The notes beneath the pieces were generated by a model that was given only the letters and a program-made list of their open reading frames with translations, ran no database searches and had not been told where the DNA came from. The position numbers and the translations under genes are program-made. From assembly GCA_023381615.1 (NCBI GenBank), contig JAMCQL010000051.1, positions 1 to 38,617 of the forward strand: 38,617 bases of DNA. The letters run 5' to 3'. Below, one piece after another: positions 426 to 12,451 of the stretch. This DNA comes from Bacteroidota bacterium. Lineage in GTDB: Bacteria > Bacteroidota > Ignavibacteria > Kryptoniales > JAKASW01. Numbering within the stretch: the stretch's first letter is position 1; each line of letters opens with the position of its first letter.

Positions 426-1871
426 TTAGTAGCGAGGCAAGCCGGGCTCTATCCTCTCTGCCCATGCATCGATTCCGCCGACAAGATTCTTCACTCTCTT
501 GAAACCGTTCTTCCTCAGGAATTCCGCTGCTCGAGCACTTCGTCTACCTGATTTGCAGTGTACGATGATCTCCTTCGAGGAATCTAACTCATGGAATCTC
601 TTTGGCAATTCGGATAATGGAATCAAAAGCGCACCGAGGTTCACGATTTCGTATTCGTGGGGCTCACGAACGTCGAGTACGAAGATGTCATCGCCGCGAT
701 CCAGCCGTGCCTTCAGTTGCTCCACGGTTATCTCGGTCTTCTCATCGATAATCTCTTCGGTAACCCTTTTGATCCCGCAGAATTCTTCGTAATCGATAAG
801 CTCATGAATTGTCGGCTCGTCACCACAAATCGGGCATTCAGGATTTTTCCTCAGCTTTAGCTCGCGGAACTTAAATTTCAACGCATTGAACAGCACGAGT
901 CTTCCAATGAGCGGCTCTCCTTCTCCGAGTATCAACTTGATAGTCTCGAGTGCCTGGAGAGTGCCTATAATCCCCGGTAATACTCCTAACACACCGCCTT
1001 CCGCACAGCTTGGCACGAGTCCGGGCGGCGGCGGTGCCGGATAAAGACACCTGTAACATGGTCCACGCCTCGCATCGAACACACTCACCTGTCCATCAAA
1101 TCGCAAGATGGAGCCGTAAACGTTCGGTTTGCCGAGAAGAACACAAGCATCGTTGACAAGATACCGCGTCGGAAAATTGTCCGTCCCGTCCACAATAACA
1201 TCATAGTCTGAAAAAAGCTCGAGGGCATTTTCTGAAGAAAGCCTTACCTCGTATGTTTCGATTACCACGTTTGGGTTGATGCTCTGCAGCGTCTCACGCG
1301 CCGAATCAAGTTTCGACCTGCCGACATCTTCTGTCGAATGCAAAACCTGTCGCTGCAGGTTAGTCACGTCGACAACATCGAAATCGACAATTCCGATCTT
1401 CCCGACACCAGCCGCGGTGAGATATAGACCGAGCGGTGAGCCGAGTCCGCCGGCTCCGATCATCAAAACCTTAGCCGCCTTCAATTTCTTTTGGCCCTTC
1501 AAGCCGACTTCAGGGATGATCAGGTGTCTGCTGTAGCGCAATATTTCCTCGTTCGAAAGCCGAACGTCGCTTTCCACATTTTCGGTGTCAACCTCGACGC
1601 CGCCCGCAATCGAGGGAACGATGCTGACGGTATCCGTCTCCTTCACGGGAGTTCGGTCCTTTGCCAGGTATCTGATGTCTTCATCGTTCACGTAGATATT
1701 GACATAACTCCGCAAGCTGCCGTTCTCGGCATACAAGTGCTGCCTCACCTGACCGTATTTGGAAGTCAAGTTCTGCAGAACTTCACCTACGGTCCTGCCG
1801 TCGACTTCAACAGTGTCACGTTTATCAGTGTATGGACGCAGCGGCGTTGGAATGAAAACCTTTATTGACAT
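426..1871 (-). CDS. CysO-like sulfur carrier / MoeB-type E1 / rhodanese triple fusion
   Basis: The 481-residue protein has three modules. Residues 1-91 are a ThiS/MoaD/CysO ubiquitin-like carrier ending SIVPSIAGG. Residues 105-350 are a MoeB/ThiF adenylyltransferase with GAGGLGSPLGLYL and two zinc pairs (CYRC and CPIC). Residues 375-481 are a rhodanese with active-site loop CKSGRRSA. Known chemistry of the families: the E1 adenylates the carrier's terminal glycine and sulfur is transferred to give a thiocarboxylate, the sulfur donor for CysM-type cysteine synthesis. MoeZ of mycobacteria has the E1-rhodanese pair, but there CysO is separate. Here the Gly-Gly is internal, so the carrier would have to be cut free, or work on a tether. 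It follows mec by 79 bases with a TAAGGAG ribosome site. Confidence 0.92.
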   Translation of the reverse strand: MSIKVFIPTPLRPYTDKRDTVEVDGRTVGEVLQNLTSKYGQVRQHLYAENGSLRSYVNIYVNDEDIRYLAKDRTPVKETDTVSIVPSIAGGVEVDTENVESDVRLSNEEILRYSRHLIIPEVGLKGQKKLKAAKVLMIGAGGLGSPLGLYLTAAGVGKIGIVDFDVVDVTNLQRQVLHSTEDVGRSKLDSARETLQSINPNVVIETYEVRLSSENALELFSDYDVIVDGTDNFPTRYLVNDACVLLGKPNVYGSILRFDGQVSVFDARRGPCYRCLYPAPPPPGLVPSCAEGGVLGVLPGIIGTLQALETIKLILGEGEPLIGRLVLFNALKFKFRELKLRKNPECPICGDEPTIHELIDYEEFCGIKRVTEEIIDEKTEITVEQLKARLDRGDDIFVLDVREPHEYEIVNLGALLIPLSELPKRFHELDSSKEIIVHCKSGRRSARAAEFLRKNGFKRVKNLVGGIDAWAERIEPGLPRY

Positions 1872-1884
1872 TGATTCTCCTTAT

Positions 1885-1995
1885 CTATCAATTAACAATT
1901 ATCAGTGTTCAGTTATCAGTTGTCGGACTTCAGTTCTCGCAAATCAGTTTTCACTTATCTGAGTTCTCGACTCTCGCTCCTTGCTCTCCAACTTC
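1885..1995. repeat. Degenerate heptanucleotide repeat at the mec/cysO-moeB junction
   Basis: On the minus strand the spacer between mec and the next gene reads as a drifting series of units such as AACTGAT, AACTGAA and CACTGAT. The series runs back into the last codons of mec, which encode a poorly conserved tail. No other signal except the downstream ribosome site is seen. Confidence 0.6.
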
Positions 1996-2427
1996 GTTGG
2001 CTGTAGATTTCTCAATTGAAAGCGATCTCTCATCGAAGCGCTCTCTTGTACCGGACAAGAGCCAAGCTGTCATACTCTTTGCCTTGCCCTCAGCTACGGA
2101 AACGATCACATAAATAAAACAGGGAAGAGCGTGCTCCGTGTCGAACGCGGACGGGATTGCAGGATGATCGGGATGAGAATGATAGAAACCGAGTAGTTCG
2201 AGTCCCCTTTCAACTGCCATTCGTTCCGCCTGAAGGTATTGCTTCGGGGTCACGAAGAATCTTCTTCGTCGGTTCTCATCCTGGTTATTGTCAAGTTCAA
2301 TAACGGTCTCAACTTTTTGAACGCCGTCCTTGTTCACCCCCAATAGAATTCCGCAACACTCTTCCGGATAAGTATGTTCACCGTGCTGCTCAATTTGGCG
2401 AACAGATTCTTTCGTCATTCTAATCAT
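1951..2427 (-). CDS. mec: Mec-type JAMM/MPN+ metallopeptidase
   Basis: A 158-residue zinc peptidase of the JAB/MPN+ fold. The JAMM signature is visible as H83-S-H85 followed by S93 and D96 (HSHPDHPAIPSAFD), and the supporting glutamate is in PEECCGILLG. In mycobacteria Mec hydrolyses the CysO-cysteine adduct to release cysteine. Here it lies between cysM (14 bases upstream) and the CysO-E1-rhodanese fusion, so the same role is very likely. It could also cut the internal Gly-Gly of the fusion to mature the carrier (inference). The last dozen residues are encoded by heptad-repeat sequence and look non-conserved. Confidence 0.9.
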   Translation of the reverse strand: MIRMTKESVRQIEQHGEHTYPEECCGILLGVNKDGVQKVETVIELDNNQDENRRRRFFVTPKQYLQAERMAVERGLELLGFYHSHPDHPAIPSAFDTEHALPCFIYVIVSVAEGKAKSMTAWLLSGTRERFDERSLSIEKSTANEVGEQGARVENSDK

Positions 2428-2441
2428 TCTTTTTTACCGGT

Positions 2442-3446
2442 TTATTTCCCTGCATGATCCTGTAGATCGCTCAAAAAATGTTCCGTGCCGTATCTCGCGC
2501 CGCTATCCGGGAAGACCGTAACAACAACTCCCGACTTCAGCTGCGACGCGACCTTCAAACTTGCCGCCATGGCGGCACCGCTGGATATGCCGACAAACAA
2601 TCCCTCCTCGCGTGCCAATCGCTTCACCATCTCGTAAGCTTCCTCGGTTGAAACAGTCAACTCGTCGTCTGCGATTGTGGAATCATAAATCCCCGGCACG
2701 ATCGAAGTCTCAAGATGTTTTAAGCCCTCCAATCCGTGGAGCGGCGTGTCCGGCTCGAATGAAACACAAACAATGGAAGGATTGAATTCCCTCAACCGTC
2801 GACTGGTGCCGACAAATGTTCCAGTCGTTCCGAGTCCTGCGACAAAATGTGTGACGCGATGATCGGTTTGTTCCCATATTTCCGGTGCGGTGGTCTGATA
2901 GTGGGCTTTCCAATTCGCTGGATTGTTATATTGATCGGGATAAAAGTACATTTTCGGTTCGGCGGCAACGATTTCTCTGACTCGCTGCTGTGCACCGTCT
3001 GTGCCCGCAAGCGGATCCGTGTAGATGATTTCCGTGCCGTAAGCAAGCAGCGCATTCTTTCGCTCCCTGCTCGCATTCGATGGAAGTGCAAGTGCGACTT
3101 TGTAACCGAGTGCGCTGCCGATCATCGCATAGGCAATCCCCGTGTTTCCGCTGGTTGCATCTATGATCGTCTTCTCTTTCGTCAACACTCCGGACCGTTC
3201 GGCTTCGAGGACCATGCTGAGTGCCGCGCGATCTTTGACCGATCCGCCTGGATTGAACCACTCTGCCTTAGCATAGACTTCGACCGACTCGTTAGCAGGA
3301 GACAGTTTCCGGATGCGGAGCAGCGGTGTATTTCCAATGTTGCCGAGAATTGAGTGACGATCATGGATATGGCTCTCGACGCGATCCGGGTCAAGTTCCG
3401 TTAATGTCGACTGATCTTCGCTTTCTTTGAATTGATGCAATGTCAT
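2442..3446 (-). CDS. cysM: CysM-like PLP-dependent cysteine synthase
   Basis: A fold-type II PLP enzyme of the cysteine synthase/cystathionine beta-synthase family, 334 residues from the chosen ATG. K71 in FNPGGSVKDRAAL is the Schiff-base lysine, and the phosphate-binding loop SGNTGIAY is present. The frame stays open about 50 codons further upstream to 3596, but that stretch (beginning MPILRCNK) lies inside the neighbouring small zinc-finger gene and has no family similarity, so the ATG at 3446 is preferred even though its ribosome site is weak. Placement with mec and a CysO fusion suggests it uses a protein thiocarboxylate with O-phosphoserine or O-acetylserine, like mycobacterial CysM, rather than free sulfide. 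The acceptor amino acid cannot be read from the sequence. Confidence 0.88.
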   Translation of the reverse strand: MTLHQFKESEDQSTLTELDPDRVESHIHDRHSILGNIGNTPLLRIRKLSPANESVEVYAKAEWFNPGGSVKDRAALSMVLEAERSGVLTKEKTIIDATSGNTGIAYAMIGSALGYKVALALPSNASRERKNALLAYGTEIIYTDPLAGTDGAQQRVREIVAAEPKMYFYPDQYNNPANWKAHYQTTAPEIWEQTDHRVTHFVAGLGTTGTFVGTSRRLREFNPSIVCVSFEPDTPLHGLEGLKHLETSIVPGIYDSTIADDELTVSTEEAYEMVKRLAREEGLFVGISSGAAMAASLKVASQLKSGVVVTVFPDSGARYGTEHFLSDLQDHAGK

Positions 3447-3493
3447 CTTTTTATCACATAAGTTTTCAGTTTTTGATCGAACATATCGCGGAA

Positions 3494-3733
3494 CTAATTC
3501 CCGCGATGTACGGCTTTCAACTTCTTGCAGTGTTTGCAGATGCTCTTGTATAGTTTGTAAAAAGATTGCGGCTTTGTTGCACCGCAGTATCGGCACTTCG
3601 GAGGCATCTTGTATCGCCGCTTAAGAAATTCGACACTGCCGTAACGCCGCTGTCTCCCATAATGTTTCCAGCAAAGCCCGCGTGCAACGCAGGGTTCCGA
3701 ACATCTGTCTACAGTACAAACGCGATTATTCAA
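3494..3733 (-). CDS. Small HNH/zinc-finger-like protein in the cysteine operon
   Basis: A 79-residue basic protein with C6, C11, C15 and C21-WKHYGRQRRYG, followed by CRYC and CKHC pairs. The first part (ARGLCWKHYGRQRRYG) is the motif common at the N-terminus of small phage-type HNH endonucleases and related zinc-binding proteins. The second half resembles a zinc ribbon. Its ATG overlaps the end of cysG by 8 bases, so it is probably translationally coupled and co-transcribed. No complete catalytic HNH triad was identified, so nuclease activity is doubtful. Why it sits among sulfate-assimilation genes is unknown. It could be a DNA-binding protein or a stray mobile-element gene. Confidence 0.65.
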   Translation of the reverse strand: MNNRVCTVDRCSEPCVARGLCWKHYGRQRRYGSVEFLKRRYKMPPKCRYCGATKPQSFYKLYKSICKHCKKLKAVHRGN

Positions 3734-5174
3734 CGAAGAAATCCCTCTCCAGGATAGTTACTTCGGGTGAGACCGGCTCTTGAATGGCTGGAATGCTCTC
3801 CCGAGTTGTGAATTCACGAAAAAATCGGACCACATTGCCAACAACAATCAATCCAGGTAAATCAGTCGAAAATTCTCCGGCGCGCTCCTCAATATTCTCC
3901 ATCGTTCCTGTGACGACAGTTTCCGCAGGCAGCGTGCCGCCGAAGATAACCGCAACAGGTTTTGAGGCGGAGACGCCGTGTCGAATTAACCGCTCCGTGA
4001 TTATGCCGAGCCTCTTCACGCCCATGTAAATCACAATTGTATCTACGTGTGAAACACATTCCCAATCGACGTGTTCACCGGATTTCGCTGGGGCCTCATG
4101 GCCGGTTAGAAATAAAACACTCGACGATTCCTCGCGGTGAGTTAGCGGTATTCCCAGAGAAGTCGGCAAGCCAACTCCTGCTGTAACACCGGGGACAGCT
4201 TCCACTTCGATTCCTGCTTCCTGCAGGGTTTTGAGTTCTTCTCCTCCGCGTCCAAAAACGAACGGGTCGCCGCCTTTCAGCCTCACGACGCACTTTCCCT
4301 CGCAAACTTTCCGAATAAGCAGCTCATTGATTTCTTCCTGTTTCACGCAATGCGCACCTGCCCTTTTTCCGACATAAATCTTTTCGGCAGACTCCGGAAC
4401 CTCGGAGAGAAGTTCATTACTGATGAGCGCATCGTAGAGAACAACCTCTGCTGAACGGAGTAACCTGAGCGCTTTTACAGTAATCAATTCAGGATCACCG
4501 GGGCCTGCTCCCACGAGATAAACTTTGCCAACACTCAAAGAATTCTTAGAAGACCGGCTGTCATCTCTCGCCTCTACAGAATAATTCTTAGAATATGAGT
4601 GGGGCCTCTTCAACTCGGTTTGAACTATATGTTCATAAAGTTTCTTTCGGCTCTCAAAATCAGGCAAAGTCTTCTGAATCTCAGGGCGCAAGCCGCCAAT
4701 AGTCCCGAGCAAGGCAGGATAACCATCCGAATATTCAGCTGCGATCTTATCCCGAATAATCTTGCCGAGAGTCGGGCTTTTCCCGTTTGTCGATACAGCG
4801 ACCTTTAGATCACCCTTTTGAAACACTGATGAGAGATAGAAAGTGCAGCGATCCGGCATGTCAGCGATGTTGACAGGGATTTTTCTATCCCGCGCTTCTT
4901 TGAAAACTATCTCTTGCACATCGCGGTCGTTAGTTGCGCAGATGACAATAAAAACCCCCTCCACATCTCCCGACTCATACCTGCGACGATGTAGAACGAT
5001 TTTTCTTTCCTCAGCAAGTTTCTCAATATTCGCAGAAACCACGGGAGCAATCACGGTAACGTCAGCATTTGCTTCAAGCAATCCTTTTATCTTTTGTTCG
5101 GCGACTTTTCCTCCGCCGACCACAAGAACTGGTTCGCGCTCAATCTTCAAGAATATCGGATATAGATTATTCAT
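3726..5174 (-). CDS. cysG: Siroheme synthase (Met8-like dehydrogenase/ferrochelatase + uroporphyrinogen-III methyltransferase)
   Basis: A 482-residue fusion making siroheme for the sulfite reductase of the same operon. Residues 1-200 are the precorrin-2 dehydrogenase/sirohydrochlorin ferrochelatase part, with the NAD-binding VLVVGGGKVAEQKI and the STNGKSPTLGKIIRDKI segment. Residues 218-460 are the SAM-dependent methyltransferase (SUMT), with VYLVGAGPGDPELIT, the VVRLKGGDPFVFGRGGEE loop and the AVPGVTAG motif. Domain order and length match CysG. The start at 5174 follows a heptad-repeat spacer downstream of the APS kinase-sulfurylase gene, with AAGAGAAA as a weak ribosome site. The 3' end overlaps the small zinc-finger gene. 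Confidence 0.93.
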   Translation of the reverse strand: MNNLYPIFLKIEREPVLVVGGGKVAEQKIKGLLEANADVTVIAPVVSANIEKLAEERKIVLHRRRYESGDVEGVFIVICATNDRDVQEIVFKEARDRKIPVNIADMPDRCTFYLSSVFQKGDLKVAVSTNGKSPTLGKIIRDKIAAEYSDGYPALLGTIGGLRPEIQKTLPDFESRKKLYEHIVQTELKRPHSYSKNYSVEARDDSRSSKNSLSVGKVYLVGAGPGDPELITVKALRLLRSAEVVLYDALISNELLSEVPESAEKIYVGKRAGAHCVKQEEINELLIRKVCEGKCVVRLKGGDPFVFGRGGEELKTLQEAGIEVEAVPGVTAGVGLPTSLGIPLTHREESSSVLFLTGHEAPAKSGEHVDWECVSHVDTIVIYMGVKRLGIITERLIRHGVSASKPVAVIFGGTLPAETVVTGTMENIEERAGEFSTDLPGLIVVGNVVRFFREFTTRESIPAIQEPVSPEVTILERDFFVE

Positions 5175-5176
5175 TT

Positions 5177-5230
5177 TCTCTTAGTCTCTGCTCTATGCTC
5201 TCTGCGCCATGCTCAATGCCTCTTTACCAC
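5177..5230. repeat. Heptanucleotide repeat at the cysC-sat/cysG junction
   Basis: On the minus strand units such as GAGCATG, GCGCAGA, GAGCATA and GAGCAGA follow each other. They begin in the last codons of the upstream gene and fill the spacer to cysG. The block GAGG-C-TTGAG-ATGGCGCAGAGAG occurs again, nearly identical, at the start of cysH (8630-8665). Confidence 0.6.
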
Positions 5231-7069
5231 AGTTGTGGAAGCGATATTCTGTCTTTCGGAGTATTGTCGTTGAAGTACCTTCACGACTTCGGGTCGGGAA
5301 AATTCTTTAGGCAACTCTTCCCCATTTCTAAGTCGTTCGCGCACTTTCGTACCGCTGAGAATGATTCGCTCATCGGCCCCGTGCGGGCACGTCTTCTCCG
5401 ATGCCATTCCATCGCACTTCCGGCAATAGAAAGTGTGCTCGAATTTCAGTGGCGTTATTCCAAGCTCATCCTTTGCGTACTCATCAAAGATGATCTGGGC
5501 ATGGTAAGTACCGTAATAATTGCCGACTCCTGCGTGGTCGCGGCCCACTATAAAATGCGTGCATCCATAGTTTTGTCGGATGATCGCATGATGAATCGCT
5601 TCCTTCGGTCCAGCATATCTCATTGCGGCCGGCATTACGGAAAGCAAGACGCGGTCTTGAGGATAATAATTCTTCAGGAGGACCTGATAACACTCCATGC
5701 GAACCTCGGCCGGTATGTCATCTCCTTTCGTCTCTCCCACGAGAGGATGGAGGAGAAGCCCATCGACCATCTCAAGAGCCACTTTCTGAAGGTACTCGTG
5801 AGCACGGTGCACAGGGTTGCGCGTCTGGAAGGCTGCCACAGTTTTCCAGCCATGTTCCTTGAAATATCGACGCGTTTGCAATGGGGTAAGCCGGAGTTCC
5901 AGAAAATCACTGCGACCTTCCAACCTCACAACGTCAATTACACCGGCTAAAGCGACATCTCCTTCGTCAAAGAGATTCTTCACACCGGGGTGATTACGGT
6001 CAGTGGTCTTCCAAACTCGTTGTGCAAGTTCGTCTTTGTCGATGCGGAATATTTCGTCCAGATTCAGAAGCGCAAGGTTCTTTCCGTCACGATCGCGAAG
6101 CACTATGTCGTCATTAATCTTTAGTTGCTCAGCCTGCTCGTCTTCAACAAGCAGCAGAATTGGAATTGTCCAGGCGAGCCCGTTGCTTAACCGGCCGTTC
6201 ATTATGATGCTCTTGTAATCGTGCTCGCCAACGAATCCGACGAGAGGTGAATATGCACCATTTGCAATCAGTTCGATGTCCGACCACTGACGAGAAGAAA
6301 GAGTAAGCGAGGGGGATTTCTCGATTCGATCTATGATTTTATCTCTCTCCACATCCGGAAGAAAACGATTCACGAGGATTCCGCCGTGCGGTGCAATGGT
6401 GCAGTGTTCTCCCTCATCAGCGCTGATGACTTTGCTAACCGCTGCGTCCGAGACGTGCAAATTACGGAGCTTGCCAACCCTTCGAAGTTGAGTGATTACC
6501 TTTTCTTCCTCTTGTTCAGGAAGAGATATATCTCCTGTCGGCACCAGACTGAGAAGCTCCAATGCACGAAGAAGCTTATTCACACTGATGTCAACCGTCT
6601 CTTTGTCCGTTTCGAGAATGACTTCCGGAGCATGCGGCGGCTCATAAGGATCTGAGACGCCAGTAAAATTCTTTATCTCGCCCGCAAGCGCTTTCCTGTA
6701 TAAGCCTTTGACGTCCCGCTGCACGAGAGTCTCCATTGGTGCGGAAACGTAGACTTCAACGAAATTCTCTATTTGGAAACGGACACGATCCCTAATTTTC
6801 CGATATGGAGAAATAGCCGCTCCGATCGCTATTGCACCATTGCGGGAAAGCAGCTCGCAGACAAATCCGATTCGCAGGATGTTTGTATCACGATCCTCTT
6901 TACTGAATCCCAATCCTTTGCTCAAATGCGTCCGAACTACGTCACCGTCGAGAACTTCAATTTTGTTCTCTCCTCTCGCCTTCAGTCTCTTGACAAGTTC
7001 TTCCGAGATTGTCGATTTCCCGGCTCCTGAGAGTCCGGTGAACCAAATCGTGAACCCTTGCGGACTCAT
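5213..7069 (-). CDS. APS kinase / ATP sulfurylase fusion
   Basis: A 618-residue bifunctional enzyme. Residues 1-175 are APS kinase with P-loop GLSGAGKST, the EVLDGD motif and GVSDPYEPP substrate loop. Residues 215-610 are ATP sulfurylase with QTRNPVHRAHE and GRDHAGVGNYYG, both intact. It activates sulfate to APS and phosphorylates APS to PAPS. The kinase-first order is that of animal PAPS synthetases rather than the sulfurylase-first order. A C-x2-C...C-x-H pattern in the sulfurylase (YCRKCDGMASEKTCPHG) suggests bound zinc, as in some bacterial enzymes. The start has a good AAAGGAG site 8-10 bases upstream. The reductase next door looks APS-type, so the kinase may supply PAPS for other uses. 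The last residues are encoded beside heptad repeats. Confidence 0.94.
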   Translation of the reverse strand: MSPQGFTIWFTGLSGAGKSTISEELVKRLKARGENKIEVLDGDVVRTHLSKGLGFSKEDRDTNILRIGFVCELLSRNGAIAIGAAISPYRKIRDRVRFQIENFVEVYVSAPMETLVQRDVKGLYRKALAGEIKNFTGVSDPYEPPHAPEVILETDKETVDISVNKLLRALELLSLVPTGDISLPEQEEEKVITQLRRVGKLRNLHVSDAAVSKVISADEGEHCTIAPHGGILVNRFLPDVERDKIIDRIEKSPSLTLSSRQWSDIELIANGAYSPLVGFVGEHDYKSIIMNGRLSNGLAWTIPILLLVEDEQAEQLKINDDIVLRDRDGKNLALLNLDEIFRIDKDELAQRVWKTTDRNHPGVKNLFDEGDVALAGVIDVVRLEGRSDFLELRLTPLQTRRYFKEHGWKTVAAFQTRNPVHRAHEYLQKVALEMVDGLLLHPLVGETKGDDIPAEVRMECYQVLLKNYYPQDRVLLSVMPAAMRYAGPKEAIHHAIIRQNYGCTHFIVGRDHAGVGNYYGTYHAQIIFDEYAKDELGITPLKFEHTFYCRKCDGMASEKTCPHGADERIILSGTKVRERLRNGEELPKEFSRPEVVKVLQRQYSERQNIASTTVVKRH

Positions 7070-7109: not shown

Positions 7110-7874
7110 TCATAACAGTTTTATACCCGATATGACCAACATCGAGCCGAGGATTATTTCCATTGCTCTCTTCGGGAAGGAGACGCTCAACTTGCTCCCG
7201 AGAACGACACCCGGGACTGAACCGATGAGCAAATTGATCAACAGAGAAAAATCGACAGTGCCGTTTGCAAGATGGCCAGCTCCGGCAACGGCCGTAAGGA
7301 TTGCTCCATGGAGGACGTCAATGCCGACAACTCGTGAAAGCGGAAGTGTAAAAGTGGCAAGTAAGAATGGGACAAAGATGCTGCCGCTGCCAACTGAAGT
7401 TATCGAAACTGCGAACCCAATCCCGAAGCTGACTCCTCTGACAACCCAGATGTTTTTATTTCTGGCCGCTGAGGATTTAGAGCGCTCAGCAAATCTCCAT
7501 ACTGATGGATAGAATAAACCCGCAGAGACCAAAATGAGCAAGACGCCTAGAACCTGCTTTGTCATTGAGTCGACAGAAATAATATGGAGCGAAGGAAGTA
7601 TCCTCAGGAATAGGAGACCGAGCAACGCTCCGGGAATACTCCCCGAAAGAAGCATTTTTGTTATTCGGATGTTCACATTCCCCAGCCAAGAATGAGTTAC
7701 TGCACCCGCAGCCTTTGTGAGAGAGCTAAGTACCAAATCGGTTCCAACCGCTACGACAGGCTGAACTCTAAAAAATAAAATCATGATCGGAGTGATCAGA
7801 CTTCCTCCACCCATTCCGGTAAGGCCGATCATCGTTCCGACAAAGAATCCGGCAAGTATGGTCTCCAGAGACAT
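7110..7874 (-). CDS. TauE/SafE-family membrane permease, probably for sulfate or sulfite
   Basis: A 254-residue polytopic protein with two related halves and about 7-8 predicted membrane segments. The family signature is the glycine-rich GLTGMGGGSLITPIMI near residue 20, echoed by SITSVGSGSIFVPFLL in the second half. Members move sulfite, sulfonates or other small sulfur anions, and some act as sulfate permeases. Lying between cysH (stop and start share a base) and the sulfate-activating fusion, its likely job is sulfate uptake or relief of sulfite. Direction of transport cannot be told from the sequence. Confidence 0.88.
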   Translation of the reverse strand: MSLETILAGFFVGTMIGLTGMGGGSLITPIMILFFRVQPVVAVGTDLVLSSLTKAAGAVTHSWLGNVNIRITKMLLSGSIPGALLGLLFLRILPSLHIISVDSMTKQVLGVLLILVSAGLFYPSVWRFAERSKSSAARNKNIWVVRGVSFGIGFAVSITSVGSGSIFVPFLLATFTLPLSRVVGIDVLHGAILTAVAGAGHLANGTVDFSLLINLLIGSVPGVVLGSKLSVSFPKRAMEIILGSMLVISGIKLL

Positions 7875-8623
7875 TATCTGCCGTCCCCTTCCTGAGCGGG
7901 CGAATCATCTCCGGATACGACTGGCAGCTCGGCAAGGTGTAAGCCGCATTCTTTCTTTTGAAATCCGCGCCACCTGCCGGCACGCTCATCCTCACCGTCT
8001 TTTATGGGAGTCGTGCAGTGAACGCAGCCGATACTGGCATATCCGGCATCGTGAAGGGGATTGTATGGAACCTCGTTGTCGGTGATGTAATTCCACACAT
8101 CCTTCTTTGTCCAGGTAGCCAGCGGATTGATCTTGAGCAGACTGAATTTGCTGTCCCATTCAACAATTCCCGCTTTCGCACGGAAGGGTGATTGCTTGCG
8201 CCTGACCGCGGTGATCCAACCTGTGTAATTCTTCAACGCCTCGCGAAGAGGTTCTACTTTTCTAATCTTGCAGCAGAGATCCGGATCATGTTCCCAGATG
8301 TTTGCGCCATGAAGCTCTGCCTGTTGATCGAGAGAAATTGGCGTGGCATAGCGGATGAGGCGTATCTGATATTTCTCCTCAAGCCTGTCGCACAATTTGT
8401 ATGTTTCGGGAAACAAGACATCGGTATCGAGATAGAAAACGGGAATATTCTTGTTCACCGACGCAAGCATATCAATGAGCGCAACTCCCTCAGCTCCAAA
8501 TCCAGTAGCCATGGCTATCTCGCCCACCGAAAAAGTATCGTTTATCCATTCCAATACTTTGATAGGGTGTTCCGCCTCGAATTTTTTATTTAGTGAAATT
8601 AGTTCATCCTTAGAAAATTGCAT
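7874..8623 (-). CDS. cysH: Assimilatory adenylylsulfate (APS) reductase
   Basis: Member of the PAPS reductase family, 249 residues from the chosen start. It has the C117-C118 and C200-x2-C203 cysteines that bind a [4Fe-4S] cluster in APS-using enzymes (DLCCKIRKVEPL and IGCVHC), and the catalytic cysteine in KKECGLH. Enzymes specific for PAPS lack the cluster cysteines, so APS is the expected substrate, although some cluster-bearing forms accept both. The frame is open to an ATG at 8680, but residues from there to 8623 (MRSVNKEALRMAQRVESNE) are encoded by heptad-repeat DNA and overlap the end of sir. MQFSKDELISLNKKFE matches where the family starts, so 8623 is preferred. The annotation could legitimately begin at 8680. 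Confidence 0.9.
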   Translation of the reverse strand: MQFSKDELISLNKKFEAEHPIKVLEWINDTFSVGEIAMATGFGAEGVALIDMLASVNKNIPVFYLDTDVLFPETYKLCDRLEEKYQIRLIRYATPISLDQQAELHGANIWEHDPDLCCKIRKVEPLREALKNYTGWITAVRRKQSPFRAKAGIVEWDSKFSLLKINPLATWTKKDVWNYITDNEVPYNPLHDAGYASIGCVHCTTPIKDGEDERAGRWRGFQKKECGLHLAELPVVSGDDSPAQEGDGR

Positions 8624-8624
8624 C

Positions 8625-8668
8625 TCGTTGCTCTCTACTCTCTGCGCCATCCTCAACGCCTCTTTATT
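8625..8668. repeat. Heptad-repeat block at the sir/cysH junction
   Basis: Minus-strand GAGGCGTTGAGGATGGCGCA and the following GAGAGTAGAGAGC closely match the repeat between cysC-sat and cysG. If the upstream ATG of cysH is used, this DNA is translated. Confidence 0.55.
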
Positions 8669-10440
8669 CACGCTGCGCATTCGCCTTCTCCTGTTACCGC
8701 AGCAAATGCTGACACCTCGCCAAGATCGACGAACAATTCCTTTTTGATATTCTCAGGACGAAAGTCTGACAGGTCTTTTATGTCCTCGCGGAAAGAGCGA
8801 ATACCGATTCGTTCGGCGAACTGCCAGAAGTTTTCGTCCGGGTTCCTCTGCGACAGGAACCTCCTTAGAATTCGCGAAACCGCCTCGGTCGCGTAATGTG
8901 CAGGTATTCTTCCCAGAGTCTTGCCGAATACGTGCTTGCCTGAGTTCATGCCTCCGCCGATCGATACGATGTAGGATGGAATCTGACCGCCGTTGACTTT
9001 CTTCGTTGCGCCGTGCAGTCCAATAGCGGCAATATGATGTTGATCGCACGAATTCTGGCAGCCGCTTATCTTTATGCGGAGGTCCTTCAGGATTTCACTC
9101 CAATCCGGCTGGCGATGGAACAACTGAGTTAGTTCTTTTCCCAAAGCGCGCGAGTGCGTGATGCCGAGATTGCAAGTGTCGGCTCCGGGGCACGAGGTGA
9201 CATTTGAAATGTCCTGCGCTCCGGCATCGTCCAAGTTCGCCTTCTTCAATTCCTCGTACAACCACTGCACATCGGATGATCTGACCCAATGGAGGACGAT
9301 ATCTTGTTGCGTCGTCGTGCGAACCTGACCGTTTGAGAAACGCTCCGACAGTTCACCAAGCGTATGCAGTTGATCCGCGGTGATATCACCAATCACGGGG
9401 TTTACATAAACCACGTTGTAGCCAGCTTGCTTTTGAGAAACGACGTTTGACTCAAGCCAGCGATTGAATTCGATATCTCCATTAGCCTTCAAGACAAAAC
9501 CGGTCTCGACGAGCAGACGGTCGTCTGCCGCATCATCACTTGGCACAGGGAATGTCCTGCCTGATTCGAGAATGCGTGACAGTTCCACGTTCACTCGTCT
9601 GCGAAATTCTTTAAATCCCAATTTCCAAAGTACATATTTCATTCGTGCTTTGTTGCGGTTCTCTCTATTTCCAAGCGCGTTGAATACCGTGATGATCGCC
9701 TCCGTATTTGGAATCAACAACTTGACAGGGAGAAATTCTTCAAATACATTGGCAACACGCGGTTGACCGCCGAGTCCGCCGCCGACAAATACTTTAAACC
9801 CTTTTCTTACTTTATCATCTTCTTGTTGGATCGCGGCAACATATCCAATGTCGTGAATCCAAGGAACTATCCCATCACTTTCATCAGCGCTTCCGGAAAA
9901 CGAAATCTTGAATTTTCTCGGAAGATGCTGGTTCAACTGATTGCGCAGCAGGTGTTTTGCCAGCAGACGGGCATACGGCGTTATATCAAACAACTCGTTC
10001 TGCGAGACGCCCGCCAGCGGTGATCCGACAATATTCCTGACTGTGTTGCCGCATGCTTCTCTTGTGGTAAGACCAACTTCCGCCAGCTTCTCCATGATCG
10101 AGGGAGCATTCTCGAGCTTCACCCAGTGTAACTGAATATCCTGTCGCGTGGTAATGTGTGCAATGCCGTCGGAAAACTCGCGCGTGATTTCGCCGATCCG
10201 CATCAATTGTGTCGAAGTCAGTAATCCATAAGGGATCTTGACACGGACCATGTTGAAACCCTTTTGGTCCGGCCGCTGGCCGTAAATACCGCGATGAAGC
10301 CGGTACCTCTTGAATTCATCTTCTGAAATCTCACCGCGCTTGAGACTCTCAATTGCCTCACGCATGCCTCGAATATCTTCATCATAATATATCTGGGCGC
10401 TGTCTACAGCAGCCAATTCATCTATCGTATTCAAAACCAT
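8668..10440 (-). CDS. Ferredoxin-type sulfite (nitrite/sulfite) reductase
   Basis: A 590-residue siroheme/[4Fe-4S] reductase. The cluster-siroheme cysteines are visible as TSCPGADTCNLG (C-x5-C) and SGCQNSCDQHH (C-x3-C). Two ferredoxin-like half-domains, each with an R-x-TTRQDI or R-x-TTTQQDI stretch, precede them. It reduces sulfite to sulfide with six electrons. Nitrite reductases share the fold, but the operon of sulfate-assimilation genes points to sulfite. The frame extends to an ATG at 10461, but a GAGGAG site lies just before the ATG at 10440 and would be inside the gene otherwise, so 10440 is chosen. The first base of the upstream candidate abuts the attenuator's T-run, another reason to reject it. 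Confidence 0.92.
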   Translation of the reverse strand: MVLNTIDELAAVDSAQIYYDEDIRGMREAIESLKRGEISEDEFKRYRLHRGIYGQRPDQKGFNMVRVKIPYGLLTSTQLMRIGEITREFSDGIAHITTRQDIQLHWVKLENAPSIMEKLAEVGLTTREACGNTVRNIVGSPLAGVSQNELFDITPYARLLAKHLLRNQLNQHLPRKFKISFSGSADESDGIVPWIHDIGYVAAIQQEDDKVRKGFKVFVGGGLGGQPRVANVFEEFLPVKLLIPNTEAIITVFNALGNRENRNKARMKYVLWKLGFKEFRRRVNVELSRILESGRTFPVPSDDAADDRLLVETGFVLKANGDIEFNRWLESNVVSQKQAGYNVVYVNPVIGDITADQLHTLGELSERFSNGQVRTTTQQDIVLHWVRSSDVQWLYEELKKANLDDAGAQDISNVTSCPGADTCNLGITHSRALGKELTQLFHRQPDWSEILKDLRIKISGCQNSCDQHHIAAIGLHGATKKVNGGQIPSYIVSIGGGMNSGKHVFGKTLGRIPAHYATEAVSRILRRFLSQRNPDENFWQFAERIGIRSFREDIKDLSDFRPENIKKELFVDLGEVSAFAAVTGEGECAA

Positions 10441-10461
10441 CTTCTCCTCAAGAGTATACAT

Positions 10462-10498
10462 AAAAAAAGCCCTTCGTCGGTTTTCAACGAAGGGCTTT
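10462..10498 (-). terminator. Intrinsic terminator / attenuator in the leader of the sulfate operon
   Basis: Minus-strand AAAGCCCTTCGT (10498-10487) and ACGAAGGGCTTT (10477-10466) form a perfect 12-bp stem around a 9-base loop, followed by a run of seven Ts ending at 10462, 22 bases before the sir start codon. It lies downstream of a Cys-rich leader ORF and upstream of the whole operon, so it is best read as an attenuator. A competing pairing exists: GCGAAGG within leader codons 31-33 (10548-10542) is complementary, with one wobble pair, to CCTTCGT in the terminator's first arm (10493-10487). Confidence 0.9.
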
Positions 10499-10522
10499 CA
10501 GAATCTAAGTTTCTATTTTTTG

Positions 10523-10639
10523 TTAGCTCATGGTAATTACACCTTCGCGAAAACAAAGCGGTCCCATCATGCGGGTACAACAACAACATGCGCAACACAG
10601 AGATGCTTCGTTAATTCGGGAAAATGCAGTGGTACTCAT
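10523..10639 (-). CDS. Cysteine-rich leader peptide (putative cysteine attenuator)
   Basis: A 38-codon ORF whose residues 15-21 read CCACCCC, with a seventh cysteine at 29. The Cys codons are at 10597-10577. It begins a few bases after the predicted transcription start of the sulfate operon and ends 24 bases before the terminator stem. A run of codons for the end product ahead of a terminator is the hallmark of ribosome-mediated attenuation. When charged Cys-tRNA is scarce, stalling at codons 15-21 would leave codons 31-33 free to pair with the terminator's first arm and allow read-through. The peptide itself is probably not functional. No ribosome site is seen, so translation may be leaderless or nearly so. 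The mechanism is inferred from sequence only. Confidence 0.82.
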   Translation of the reverse strand: MSTTAFSRINEASLCCACCCCTRMMGPLCFREGVITMS

Positions 10640-10648
10640 ATTTATTAT

Positions 10649-10677
10649 AAGATATGAACACACAATCAGTCTGTCAA
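10649..10677 (-). promoter_or_regulatory. Promoter of the sulfate-assimilation operon
   Basis: TTGACA (10677-10672) and TATCTT (10654-10649) are separated by exactly 17 bases. A start about 7 bases on falls near 10642, only about three bases before the leader-peptide ATG at 10639. A better -10 match (TATAAT, 10649-10644) overlaps but sits at an unfavourable 22-base spacing. Confidence 0.7.
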
Positions 10678-10766
10678 GCATCTTCGAGTGGAAAAATTCT
10701 AAATTGTCAAGAAAATAAATCAATTCTCTTGCCTCTCCAGATTGAAAGCGGACAGTTTTGTCTTCA

Positions 10767-11957
10767 TCAGCATTCTGCCACTGCTTTCGACGTGCGGGCG
10801 CGTGAGCGAGTGCCAGGCTGAAACGCTAATGCTTGATCGAGGTCCTCGATAAGATCATTCGGGTCTTCAATTCCGACAGACAGGCGAATCACACGGTCGT
10901 TGATACCAGCTTTCTCGCGCAGGTCAGGATTCATCGAGGCATGGCTCATTGTCGCAGGATGTTCAATGAGCGACTCAACGCCTCCCAGCGATTCCGCGAG
11001 TGCAAATATCCTCGTCGAACTGAGCACCTGTTTTGCTTCCTCGATTCCCCCGTCCACTTCAAACGATACCATCCCTCCAAACCCGGATTGCTGACGCTTG
11101 GCAAGCTCGTGATGAGGATGGCTCTCTAATCCGGGATAATAGACTTTGCGAACATGCGAATGAGACGAAAGGAATTCCGCAACAGCTTTCGCATTCCGTT
11201 CGTGTTCTCTCATGCGCGGAGCAAGTGTCTTGATACCGCGTAGAACAAGCCAACAATCGAATGGAGACGCACCCTGTCCCAGTGCATTTGTGAGAAACTG
11301 CAGCCTTTGGGCATGTTCCTGGTGCTTGACCACAACGGCTCCGCCAACCACGTCGCTGTGTCCGTTCAGGTATTTAGTCGTTGAGTGTACAATAATATCG
11401 GCGCCAAGTTCAAACGGTCTCTGGTTGAAAGGTGATAGGAAGGTGTTGTCAACAATGGAAAGCGCGCCATTCCGGTGAGCAATACGGGAGAGTTCCCGTA
11501 TGTCAACGATATTCAAAAGTGGATTGCTTGGAGTCTCGATCCAGAATGCTTTCGTGTTCGGTTGGATTGCATCCTGAACAGACGACAAATCTCTCATGTC
11601 GACATAGGAAATTTCAAGCCCGAATTGTTCGCGGTATGTGCGCAATAGTCGTTCTGTCCCACCGTAACAATCGTGCGTACAGAGAATGTGGTCTCCCGTT
11701 TTGAAAAAATGTAACACGAGGGTAATTGCGGCCATTCCGGTTGCAACTGCCGCCGCGCTGACCCCGCCTTCGAGTGCAGCTATGTTTTCTTCTAAGGCTC
11801 TTCGGGTTGGATTTCCGCTTCGCGTGTAGTCAAATCCTTTTGTCTGACCGATATTCTCGAAGCGAAATGTTGAAGTCTGATAGATTGGGGTTATGACGCT
11901 GTTGAAGGCGGAATCTTTATCCACTCCCGTGTGGACGGTTTTGGTTTGAAGACGCAT
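10767..11957 (-). CDS. metB: Cystathionine gamma-synthase / gamma-lyase family PLP enzyme (metB-like)
   Basis: A 396-residue Cys/Met-metabolism PLP enzyme (fold type I). It has YTRSGNPTRRALEENIAALE, the phosphate-binding TGMAAI region, DNTFLSPFNQRP and the PLP-lysine motif STTKYLNGHSD. Gamma-synthase (joins cysteine to an activated homoserine) and gamma-lyase (breaks cystathionine) cannot be told apart by eye. The SAM-I riboswitch upstream favours a methionine-biosynthetic gamma-synthase, which would consume the cysteine made by the next operon. The start at 11957 is preceded by AAGAGGT. The longer open frame to 12119 runs through repeat-like DNA and is rejected. Transcription is toward the sulfate operon promoter with no clear terminator between. 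Confidence 0.9.
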   Translation of the reverse strand: MRLQTKTVHTGVDKDSAFNSVITPIYQTSTFRFENIGQTKGFDYTRSGNPTRRALEENIAALEGGVSAAAVATGMAAITLVLHFFKTGDHILCTHDCYGGTERLLRTYREQFGLEISYVDMRDLSSVQDAIQPNTKAFWIETPSNPLLNIVDIRELSRIAHRNGALSIVDNTFLSPFNQRPFELGADIIVHSTTKYLNGHSDVVGGAVVVKHQEHAQRLQFLTNALGQGASPFDCWLVLRGIKTLAPRMREHERNAKAVAEFLSSHSHVRKVYYPGLESHPHHELAKRQQSGFGGMVSFEVDGGIEEAKQVLSSTRIFALAESLGGVESLIEHPATMSHASMNPDLREKAGINDRVIRLSVGIEDPNDLIEDLDQALAFQPGTRSRARTSKAVAEC

Positions 11958-12067
11958 ACAATTACCTCTTTTTGTAAATGATTTCACTACTGGTCGTATC
12001 TCTGGTACGAAGCAAATGTTCTGATGGTATGAAAAGAAATTCCAAGCTTCAAGCACCAAGCTCCAAA

Positions 12068-12112
12068 TGCCGCTTACGGCATCCCGACATACAAATATTT
12101 TTGACGGGACAA
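12068..12112. repeat. Copy of a dispersed short palindromic repeat within the metB leader
   Basis: The stretch GGCATCCCGACATACAAAT followed by TTTTGACGGGACAAG recurs with few changes at 23655-23690 (GGCACTCCGACATGCAAAT, then TTTTGACGGGGCAAG). A shortened inverted form occurs near 36465-36490. Its ends (CCCG and CGGG) are complementary. It is flanked by heptad-like sequence (CAAGCACCAAGCTCCAAAT and similar) between 12040 and 12200. Confidence 0.6.
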
Positions 12113-12266
12113 GCACCAAATTCCAATCTCAAACTGGGGAACTGGTACTCCGGAAGTTCAGAACTGGAATTTATGTTTTTGGTAATCGGAACTTGGATCT
12201 TGGCGTTTGCAGTTCGTTCATCACGTCAGCTCACTATACTTACTCGTTACCAATTGCACCTGTTCC

Positions 12267-12299
12267 AAAAAAAACCTCTTCCGATGATCAGAAGAGGTT
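12267..12299 (-). terminator. Intrinsic terminator of the SAM riboswitch
   Basis: Minus-strand AACCTCTTC, a short loop containing TGATCATC, then GGAAGAGGTT and a run of eight Ts. It lies about 20 bases past the riboswitch aptamer and well upstream of metB, the expected expression platform of a transcription-terminating S-box leader. Confidence 0.88.
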
Positions 12300-12320
12300 A
12301 CAAGGTAGTGTACGCATCTT

Positions 12321-12451
12321 CCTCTCATCTTTCCCGCCAATCACAATGGCAGGCAGGAGTTAGCACCTAACATTCTGCGAGGTTGTCGAGAACTGGTTGC
12401 TACGGCGTCATCGGGCCTGTTCCCTCGGCCGTTCTTGATAAGATAGAGGTT
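12321..12451 (-). ncRNA. SAM-I (S-box) riboswitch
   Basis: The aptamer's conserved blocks appear in order on the minus strand: CTTATCAAGAACGG, GAGGGAACAGGCCCGATGA, CGCCGTAGCAACC, then a variable stem, AGGTGCTAACTCCTGCC, a further stem and GGGAAAGATGAG. The 5' CTTATC and 3' GATGAG can close the P1 helix. It binds S-adenosylmethionine, and high SAM should favour the terminator that follows. It controls metB. Boundaries are approximate to a few bases. Confidence 0.95.

Follow-up and report, generated by a model that had tools for sequence, protein, structure and literature searches.

In the window, as we call the whole stretch of DNA analysed (38,617 nucleotides), the minus strand carries, between sir and a cystathionine gamma-synthase-like gene, an element that is best read by far as a ribosome-mediated transcription attenuator sensing charged tRNA-Cys, and we regard this reading as highly probable from the arrangement of the sequence. 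A promoter, a short open reading frame (ORF) with a dense run of Cys codons, an intrinsic terminator and a complementarity by which this terminator can be undone are present in the letters themselves, and so are the conservation of the arrangement among relatives and the agreement between the residue of the run and the pathway of the gene behind it. How would such an element work? RNA polymerase would start at, or a few bases before, the ATG of the leader, and a ribosome would load on this near-leaderless mRNA and translate the leader ORF. When Cys-tRNA is plentiful, the ribosome would pass the Cys codons towards the stop codon and cover or clear the RNA segment behind them (segment 2), and the terminator would form before sir. 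When Cys-tRNA is scarce, the ribosome would stall in codons 15-21 and leave segment 2 free to pair with the first arm and the loop of the terminator (segment 3), so that the terminator is blocked and the genes for sulfate assimilation, cysteine synthesis and bacillithiol would be transcribed. Leaderless initiation, stalling, termination in vivo and the response to cysteine are what we infer from this layout. If the reading is true, it gives a protein-free cysteine sensor for uncultured Bacteroidetes/Ignavibacteria, and it suggests that poly-Cys leaderless leaders arose repeatedly, with different outputs.

The genes that would be placed under this control all lie on the minus strand. The first one, sir (8668-10461), was found by family search to belong to the NirA-like ferredoxin sulfite/nitrite reductase family, and it is named by family because its score is below the curated NCBIfam cut-offs. 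Its listed start at 10461 is probably not used, since GAGGAG followed by an ATG at 10440 lies just inside, and the real start is probably 10440. Then come cysH for (phospho)adenylyl-sulfate reductase (7874-8680), a TauE/SafE family permease gene (7110-7874; PF01925), a gene for adenylyl-sulfate kinase fused to ATP sulfurylase (apsK-sat; 5213-7069), cysG for siroheme synthase (3726-5174), a cysteine synthase gene of the CysM/CysK family (2442-3596), a JAB/MPN metallopeptidase gene (1951-2427), a gene for a fusion of a ThiS/MoaD-like carrier with ThiF/MoeB and rhodanese (426-1871), and a bshA-like gene that is partial at the contig end (2-256), where TIGR03999 matches over 85 aa with an E value of 5e-37 and 127.7 bits (the full-length cut-off being 273.7). 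As annotated from their sequences, these nine genes span the way from sulfate through cysteine to bacillithiol. A nine-gene operon had been proposed in the preliminary description; the number nine holds if the partial gene at the contig end is counted, and that the genes form one transcript is suggested by their common strand and spacing. The cysteine synthase, JAB peptidase and ThiS-ThiF-rhodanese genes (426-3596, minus strand), which are neighbours, are reminiscent of the CysM-Mec-CysO carrier route of mycobacteria, and the bshA-like gene adjoins them. On the other side of the leader, directly upstream and co-directional, lies the cystathionine gamma-synthase-like gene with a SAM riboswitch (10767-12444, minus strand; riboswitch at 12322-12444, its terminator at 12299-12273). 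The terminator scan found no terminator between this gene and the Cys leader, and therefore the SAM-controlled transcript might extend into the leader.

The promoter, identified by a promoter scan and from aligned leaders, consists of a -35 box TTGACA, a spacer of 17 nt and a -10 box TATCTT at 10649-10677 (minus strand), in agreement with the preliminary description. By the scan alone it is at chance level, with 2 promoter-like sites in 1.4 kb versus 1.5 expected from shuffles; TTGACA does not vary at all across the nine aligned leaders of the genus, the window's own among them. The leader ORF (10523-10639, minus strand) starts 9 nt behind the -10 box and has 38 codons followed by TAA; its product is MSTTAFSRINEASLCCACCCCTRMMGPLCFREGVITMS, and Cys occupies residues 15, 16, 18-21 and 29, exactly as had been described before. 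The regulatory codons 15-21 (CCACCCC; 10577-10597, minus strand) hold six Cys in seven codons. None of 20,000 dinucleotide shuffles of 10462-10677 reached this density, the best being five, which occurred in 3 shuffles, and when the window's ORFs of 10-100 aa were compared, 17 had three or more Cys within seven codons, the leader ORF having six and the runner-up three. The intrinsic terminator, made of segments 3 and 4, lies at 10465-10499 (minus strand). It had been described as a 12-bp stem with seven Ts; the seven Ts are there, at 10468-10462 after the stem, and the stem has to be lengthened, as the scan counts 15 pairs around a loop of 5, the first of the Ts pairing with A's at the foot of the stem. 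Like the promoter, the terminator is unremarkable by the scan alone (1 terminator-like site versus 1.1 expected from shuffles). In the alignment, both partners have changed in 3 of the 13 pairs of its helix, a number reached by 22 of 500 shuffles, and the covariation score of the helix is higher than those of all 500.

It is to be noted that the ATG of these leaders lies very close to the promoter. The -10 box was searched for at 5 to 15 nt ahead of the ATG. Of 22 leaders, 20 have a promoter match in which this distance is 8-13 nt, and it is 9 nt in 14 of these; the exceptions are L041, with a poor match only (6 of 12 bases), and L050, with none. A Shine-Dalgarno-like sequence is absent from -20 to -4 in all 22 leaders. 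Because of this short distance and the lack of a Shine-Dalgarno sequence, the leader mRNA is probably leaderless, as far as sequence can predict it.

Further upstream, 19 bp ahead of the -35 box, stands the element TTGACAATTTAGAA (10697-10710, minus strand), possibly an activator or UP site and perhaps bound by a regulator. Its exact motif TTGWCAATTTAGAA occurs at 9 sites in 13 genomes of the genus, and the reversed pattern at none: six sites are at sir promoters, one is at a contig-edge copy of the sir promoter region (L158) and two are elsewhere, and the exact motif is missing from three of the nine sir promoters of the genus. A similar form of TTGACAATTTAGAA is seen in L028, L030 and L183. 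We also considered whether TTGWCAATTTAGAA marks a wider regulon and rejected the idea, as the two remaining sites (L156 and L162) are not ahead of recognisable sulfur genes. Could the transcript then be terminated prematurely without regard to cysteine, with relief by a ligand-binding RNA or a protein and the Cys run being incidental? Such an explanation would find some comfort in the conserved terminator and in this additional conserved element upstream of the promoter, but the leader belongs to no Rfam family at gathering score, and the residue of the run follows the pathway across gene families, which makes it the most improbable of the explanations considered here. A T-box, a riboswitch or another Rfam element was looked for in the leader and gave only weak sub-threshold matches, and a search of a plasmid collection was without match.

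If the Cys run is where a ribosome stalls in an attenuator, the RNA behind it should matter. Segment 2, the antiterminator arm GUUUUCGCGAAGG (10542-10554, minus strand), contains TTTCGCGAAGG and is complementary to segment 3, CCUUCGUUGAAAAC (10480-10493, minus strand), which comprises the first terminator arm with the loop. The preliminary description had recognised that CGCGAAGG in codons 31-33 can pair with the first terminator arm; this is right, and the pairing extends further, over the whole of GUUUUCGCGAAGG with CCUUCGUUGAAAAC. The antiterminator is thus exclusive with the terminator and is built from the RNA directly 3' of the regulatory codons, which is the arrangement by which an attenuator is recognised. 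In the nine leaders of the genus, TTTCGCGAAGG is identical in spite of being read in two frames, as FREG in five and VSRR in four, because indels ahead of TTTCGCGAAGG shift the frame. Therefore it is conserved as RNA and not as peptide.

This bears on the idea that the product of the leader ORF is itself a small working protein, rich in Cys, which binds metal or acts in redox reactions, with an ordinary intergenic terminator behind it. A dense Cys run could indeed bind metal, and the ORF is open in all nine copies of the genus. The peptide shows little conservation beyond the Cys run, though, and its last third lies in two different frames over DNA that is in part invariant. Where his, trp and met genes follow, the runs are of His, Trp and Met instead of Cys, and the eight leaders tried had no NCBIfam match even at an E value of 10, so that we consider a small protein very improbable. 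Among the same eight leaders, none matched the leader-peptide families of NCBIfam.

Support for the attenuator reading comes also from the strength of the pairing between segments 2 and 3. The duplex has -13.6 to -18.4 kcal/mol in the nine leaders of the genus, and 0 to 4.1% of 1000 shuffles equal it. When segment 3 was taken slightly longer, P values for 22 leaders range from 0.004 to 0.40, the duplex being at chance level in L030 and L045 (P 0.38 and 0.40). For 15 leaders chosen from the 22 as diverse, the combined Fisher P is about 4e-10, which is overstated because these leaders share ancestry. L091, a Cys-run ORF ahead of cysK/M in genome G041, was left out of this pairing test. Cognate segments pair better than those re-paired between leaders, only 0.0007 of 50,000 permutations being as good, and in the Ignavibacteriales leader L028, segments 1, 2 and 3 differ from those of the window and are, by eye, still mutually complementary. 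In an alignment of 15 rows, 88.2% of the antiterminator cells are paired, versus 37-60% when the alignment is slid. Covariation of the antiterminator in this alignment is not above that of shuffles, with a double change in 1 of 13 pairs and a score of 0.136 versus 0.141. The alignment support for the antiterminator thus rests mostly on invariance.

Folding in different states is consistent with the attenuator in the window. When a ribosome is placed on the codon with which the Cys run begins and only the RNA 3' of it is folded, 0.81 of segment 3 is paired upstream in the leader of the window, versus 0.20 without the ribosome. A contrast of at least 0.3 between the stalled and free states is seen in 6 of 22 leaders (G000, G002a, G005, L028, L030 and L076); it is small in most of the others and reversed in L050. 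If the ribosome is placed on the stop codon with an assumed upstream footprint of 15 nt, segment 2 still reaches segment 3 in five of the nine genus leaders, including that of the window, and the model is therefore weakest in how termination is regained once the leader has been translated rapidly. Is there a protector stem, by which an attenuator of this type would bring back termination when translation is absent? Segment 1 at about codons 4-11 (10607-10630, minus strand) is a possible protector arm that pairs with segment 2. The shuffle fraction for this pairing is 0.099 in the window, 0.007-0.033 in four of eight relatives and 0.44-0.80 in the other four. A protector stem may well form in the window and in some relatives; since shuffle and fold support is confined to some leaders, it does not seem to be general.

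The arrangement is shared by the relatives. With the sir protein as query, 41 genomes yielded nine full-length copies, from eight members of the same genus and with the window's included (15 rows, of which six were dropped as partial matches to other proteins, with E values of 1e-11 to 1e-3), and a Cys-run ORF and a terminator stand ahead of every one of the nine. When genome contigs were searched, nine sir loci appeared, six from the same genus, two from Ignavibacteria/Ignavibacteriales and one from a planctomycete. Two of these three further loci have the Cys leader with its terminator, namely those of the Ignavibacteria and Ignavibacteriales bacteria, whose sir is 69% and 66% identical; the planctomycete sir (L029, 34% identical) has no Cys leader in the 500 nt upstream. 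It had been suggested earlier that the Cys run, the stop position and the stems be compared in relatives. This comparison largely bears out the proposal: the Cys run and the terminator are conserved to the extent just given, and the stop position is kept less strictly, the leaders of the genus having 34-38 codons in two frames. The pattern named as refuting, a terminator kept with the Cys run lost, was not seen among the sir loci examined. One genome, G002, has four Cys leaders (L002, L011, L070 and L076), belonging to two sir genes, one serine acetyltransferase gene and one OsmC-like gene.

How far does the element extend over the class? Two covariance models were built, R1 from ten leaders and R2 from fifteen. 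In 13 genomes of the genus, R1 had a match at E<=1 in nine and no match in four. It matched 185 of 294 class genomes at E<=0.1, and weak matches therefore carry little meaning. With R2, nine of 395 phylum genomes matched at E<=1e-7, every one of them from the same genus or class, and 391 class genomes gave 29 places at the same threshold. By reading their run residues, 22 of these places were assigned to Cys, 4 to Met (metY) and 2 to Trp (trpE), one (G652:C39:13093) being without a clear run. The 22 Cys leaders precede sir (11), cysteine synthase (5), serine acetyltransferase (2), rhodanese (2), cysH (1, with a small ORF lying between the leader and cysH) and metY (1) genes, the gene names having been checked for ten examples. 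Fifteen of the 29 places are members of the model, which match by construction; the 14 non-members comprise 7 Cys (of which G012 is near-identical to a member), 4 Met, 2 Trp and 1 unclear. Weaker matches, examined in part, include Cys leaders at OsmC-like genes (L064 and L076), cysH (L055) and metY (L057).

A gene-led scan, in which loci were picked independently of any leader and a run ORF followed by a terminator was sought within 600 nt upstream, covered 9 sir, the best 30 of 53 cysK/M, all 18 cysE, all 27 hisG and 30 of 35 metY genes, one of the last being too short so that 29 were usable. A Cys run with a terminator was found at 9 of 9 sir, 3 of 30 cysK/M (best 30 of 53), 2 of 29 metY (from 30 of 35), 0 of 18 cysE and 0 of 27 hisG genes; a His run with a terminator at 11 of 27 hisG and none of 86 other genes (cysK/M again as the best 30 of 53, metY as 30 of 35); and a Met run with a terminator at 7 of 29 metY (from 30 of 35) and none of 84 other genes (cysK/M as the best 30 of 53). 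The claim of specificity rests on Cys, His and Met, because common residues such as Leu and Arg yield background matches. The logic of a Cys attenuator, proposed from the window only, is upheld by the stalled fold there, which gives the antiterminator, and by hisG, with its His runs in place of Cys runs. A terminator-type Cys leader is missing from 27 of 30 cysK/M (best 30 of 53) and from all 18 cysE upstream regions, and some of the cysK/M genes devoid of a leader sit inside longer operons, like that of the window.

A Cys-run ORF without a terminator stands ahead of 5 of the 18 cysE genes. At four loci of family f10 (L112, L115, L117 and L119), the run occupies the C-terminal end of the ORF or lies close to it, with 80-105 nt between the end of the ORF and the cysE match, possibly indicating translational or Rho-dependent control. 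Leaders of this kind, with a C-terminal Cys run and no terminator, look like the actinobacterial arrangement. PMC13236596 cites Canestrari et al. 2020 for translation attenuation by polycysteine leaderless short ORFs in M. smegmatis. Might the leader of the window likewise gate the ribosome-binding site of sir, and not termination? Both have poly-Cys leaders that appear leaderless, the f10 cysE genes offer a terminator-less precedent, and the terminator is only 4-10 nt from the sir match in the window and two relatives, so that pairing near the sir start might occur there. Still, in every one of the nine genus copies the leader is separated from sir by a strong terminator with a T run, and six of these terminators end 59-99 nt ahead of the sir match, too distant to mask the start, and for these reasons we consider this explanation quite unlikely. 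The window's attenuator and the mycobacterial short ORFs have in common a poly-Cys leader tied to cysteine genes and a leaderless start (a predicted one here), but the mycobacterial ones act on translation according to PMC13236596, whereas the window has an intrinsic terminator and an antiterminator. The system of the window shares the leader type of mycobacteria, is not a member of that system and would work like the trp and his attenuators.

Compared with the attenuators of trp, his and leu operons, the features in common are a leader ORF with regulatory codons, an exclusive antiterminator and terminator, and an intrinsic terminator before the first gene; the differences are that the system of the window senses cysteine, governs sulfate assimilation, appears leaderless, has a protector that is not general, and lies in metagenome-assembled genomes (MAGs) of Bacteroidetes/Ignavibacteria. 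Runs of Cys codons have also been noted in front of the cys operons of Mycobacterium and P. acnes and of cbs in B. longum (PMC1262725); these runs are near the stop codon and come without conserved terminator hairpins, unlike in the window. In Rhodobacterales, uORFC-8-2 ahead of cysS is a predicted Cys attenuator with a 3' U run like that of an intrinsic terminator (PMC8632094). By its description there, it has two tandem Cys codons near positions 14-15, precedes cysS and belongs to Alphaproteobacteria, whereas the window has six Cys in codons 15-21 and precedes sir. Leaderless leader peptides of Streptomyces lividans, such as leuL, trpL and metL, contain residues of their pathways and some have intrinsic terminators, and one with Met/Cys precedes metNIQ (PMC8079986); pathway residues and a leaderless start, a predicted one in the window, are common to these and to the window, and their amino acids and their actinobacterial hosts are different. 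According to PMC2965389, leader-peptide systems had been shown in Proteobacteria and Actinobacteria only, before the Firmicutes case that it reports. Closer to the present phylum, PMC9723704 gives clues for leader-peptide attenuation at amino-acid operons of a flavobacterium, and PMC7366714 mentions short ORFs in Bacteroides that resemble leader peptides. Searches of open-licence papers brought up no cysteine attenuator of the terminator type for sulfate assimilation, the predicted cysS motif uORFC-8-2 being the nearest.

It might be possible that all these leaders form a class-wide sensing layer for sulfur and other amino acids, in which one leaderless attenuator core was re-keyed with Cys, Met, Trp or His and moved between operons, with tandem Met leaders at metY in place of the SAM riboswitch of relatives, and in which the poly-Cys sensor evolved independently of that of actinobacteria and acts on termination, not on translation. 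We offer this wider view tentatively and give it somewhat less than an even chance. Met-run leaders with a terminator stand at the metY (O-acetylhomoserine sulfhydrylase) loci L192, L197, L214, L215, L218, L219 and L221, and further Met-run leaders at metY are L169, L170, L172 and L059. They are in tandem at L214, L215 and L218, and several of the Met runs hold a Cys (MMCM). By Rfam, 8 of 12 metY loci have a SAM riboswitch, including that of the window's own genome (L213) and those of the genus relatives L200, L202, L204 and L208, and at the metY locus L192 a Met leader occurs together with a SAM riboswitch. Trp leaders precede trpE at L186 and L187, and the hisG leaders, found among L129-L155, look classical.
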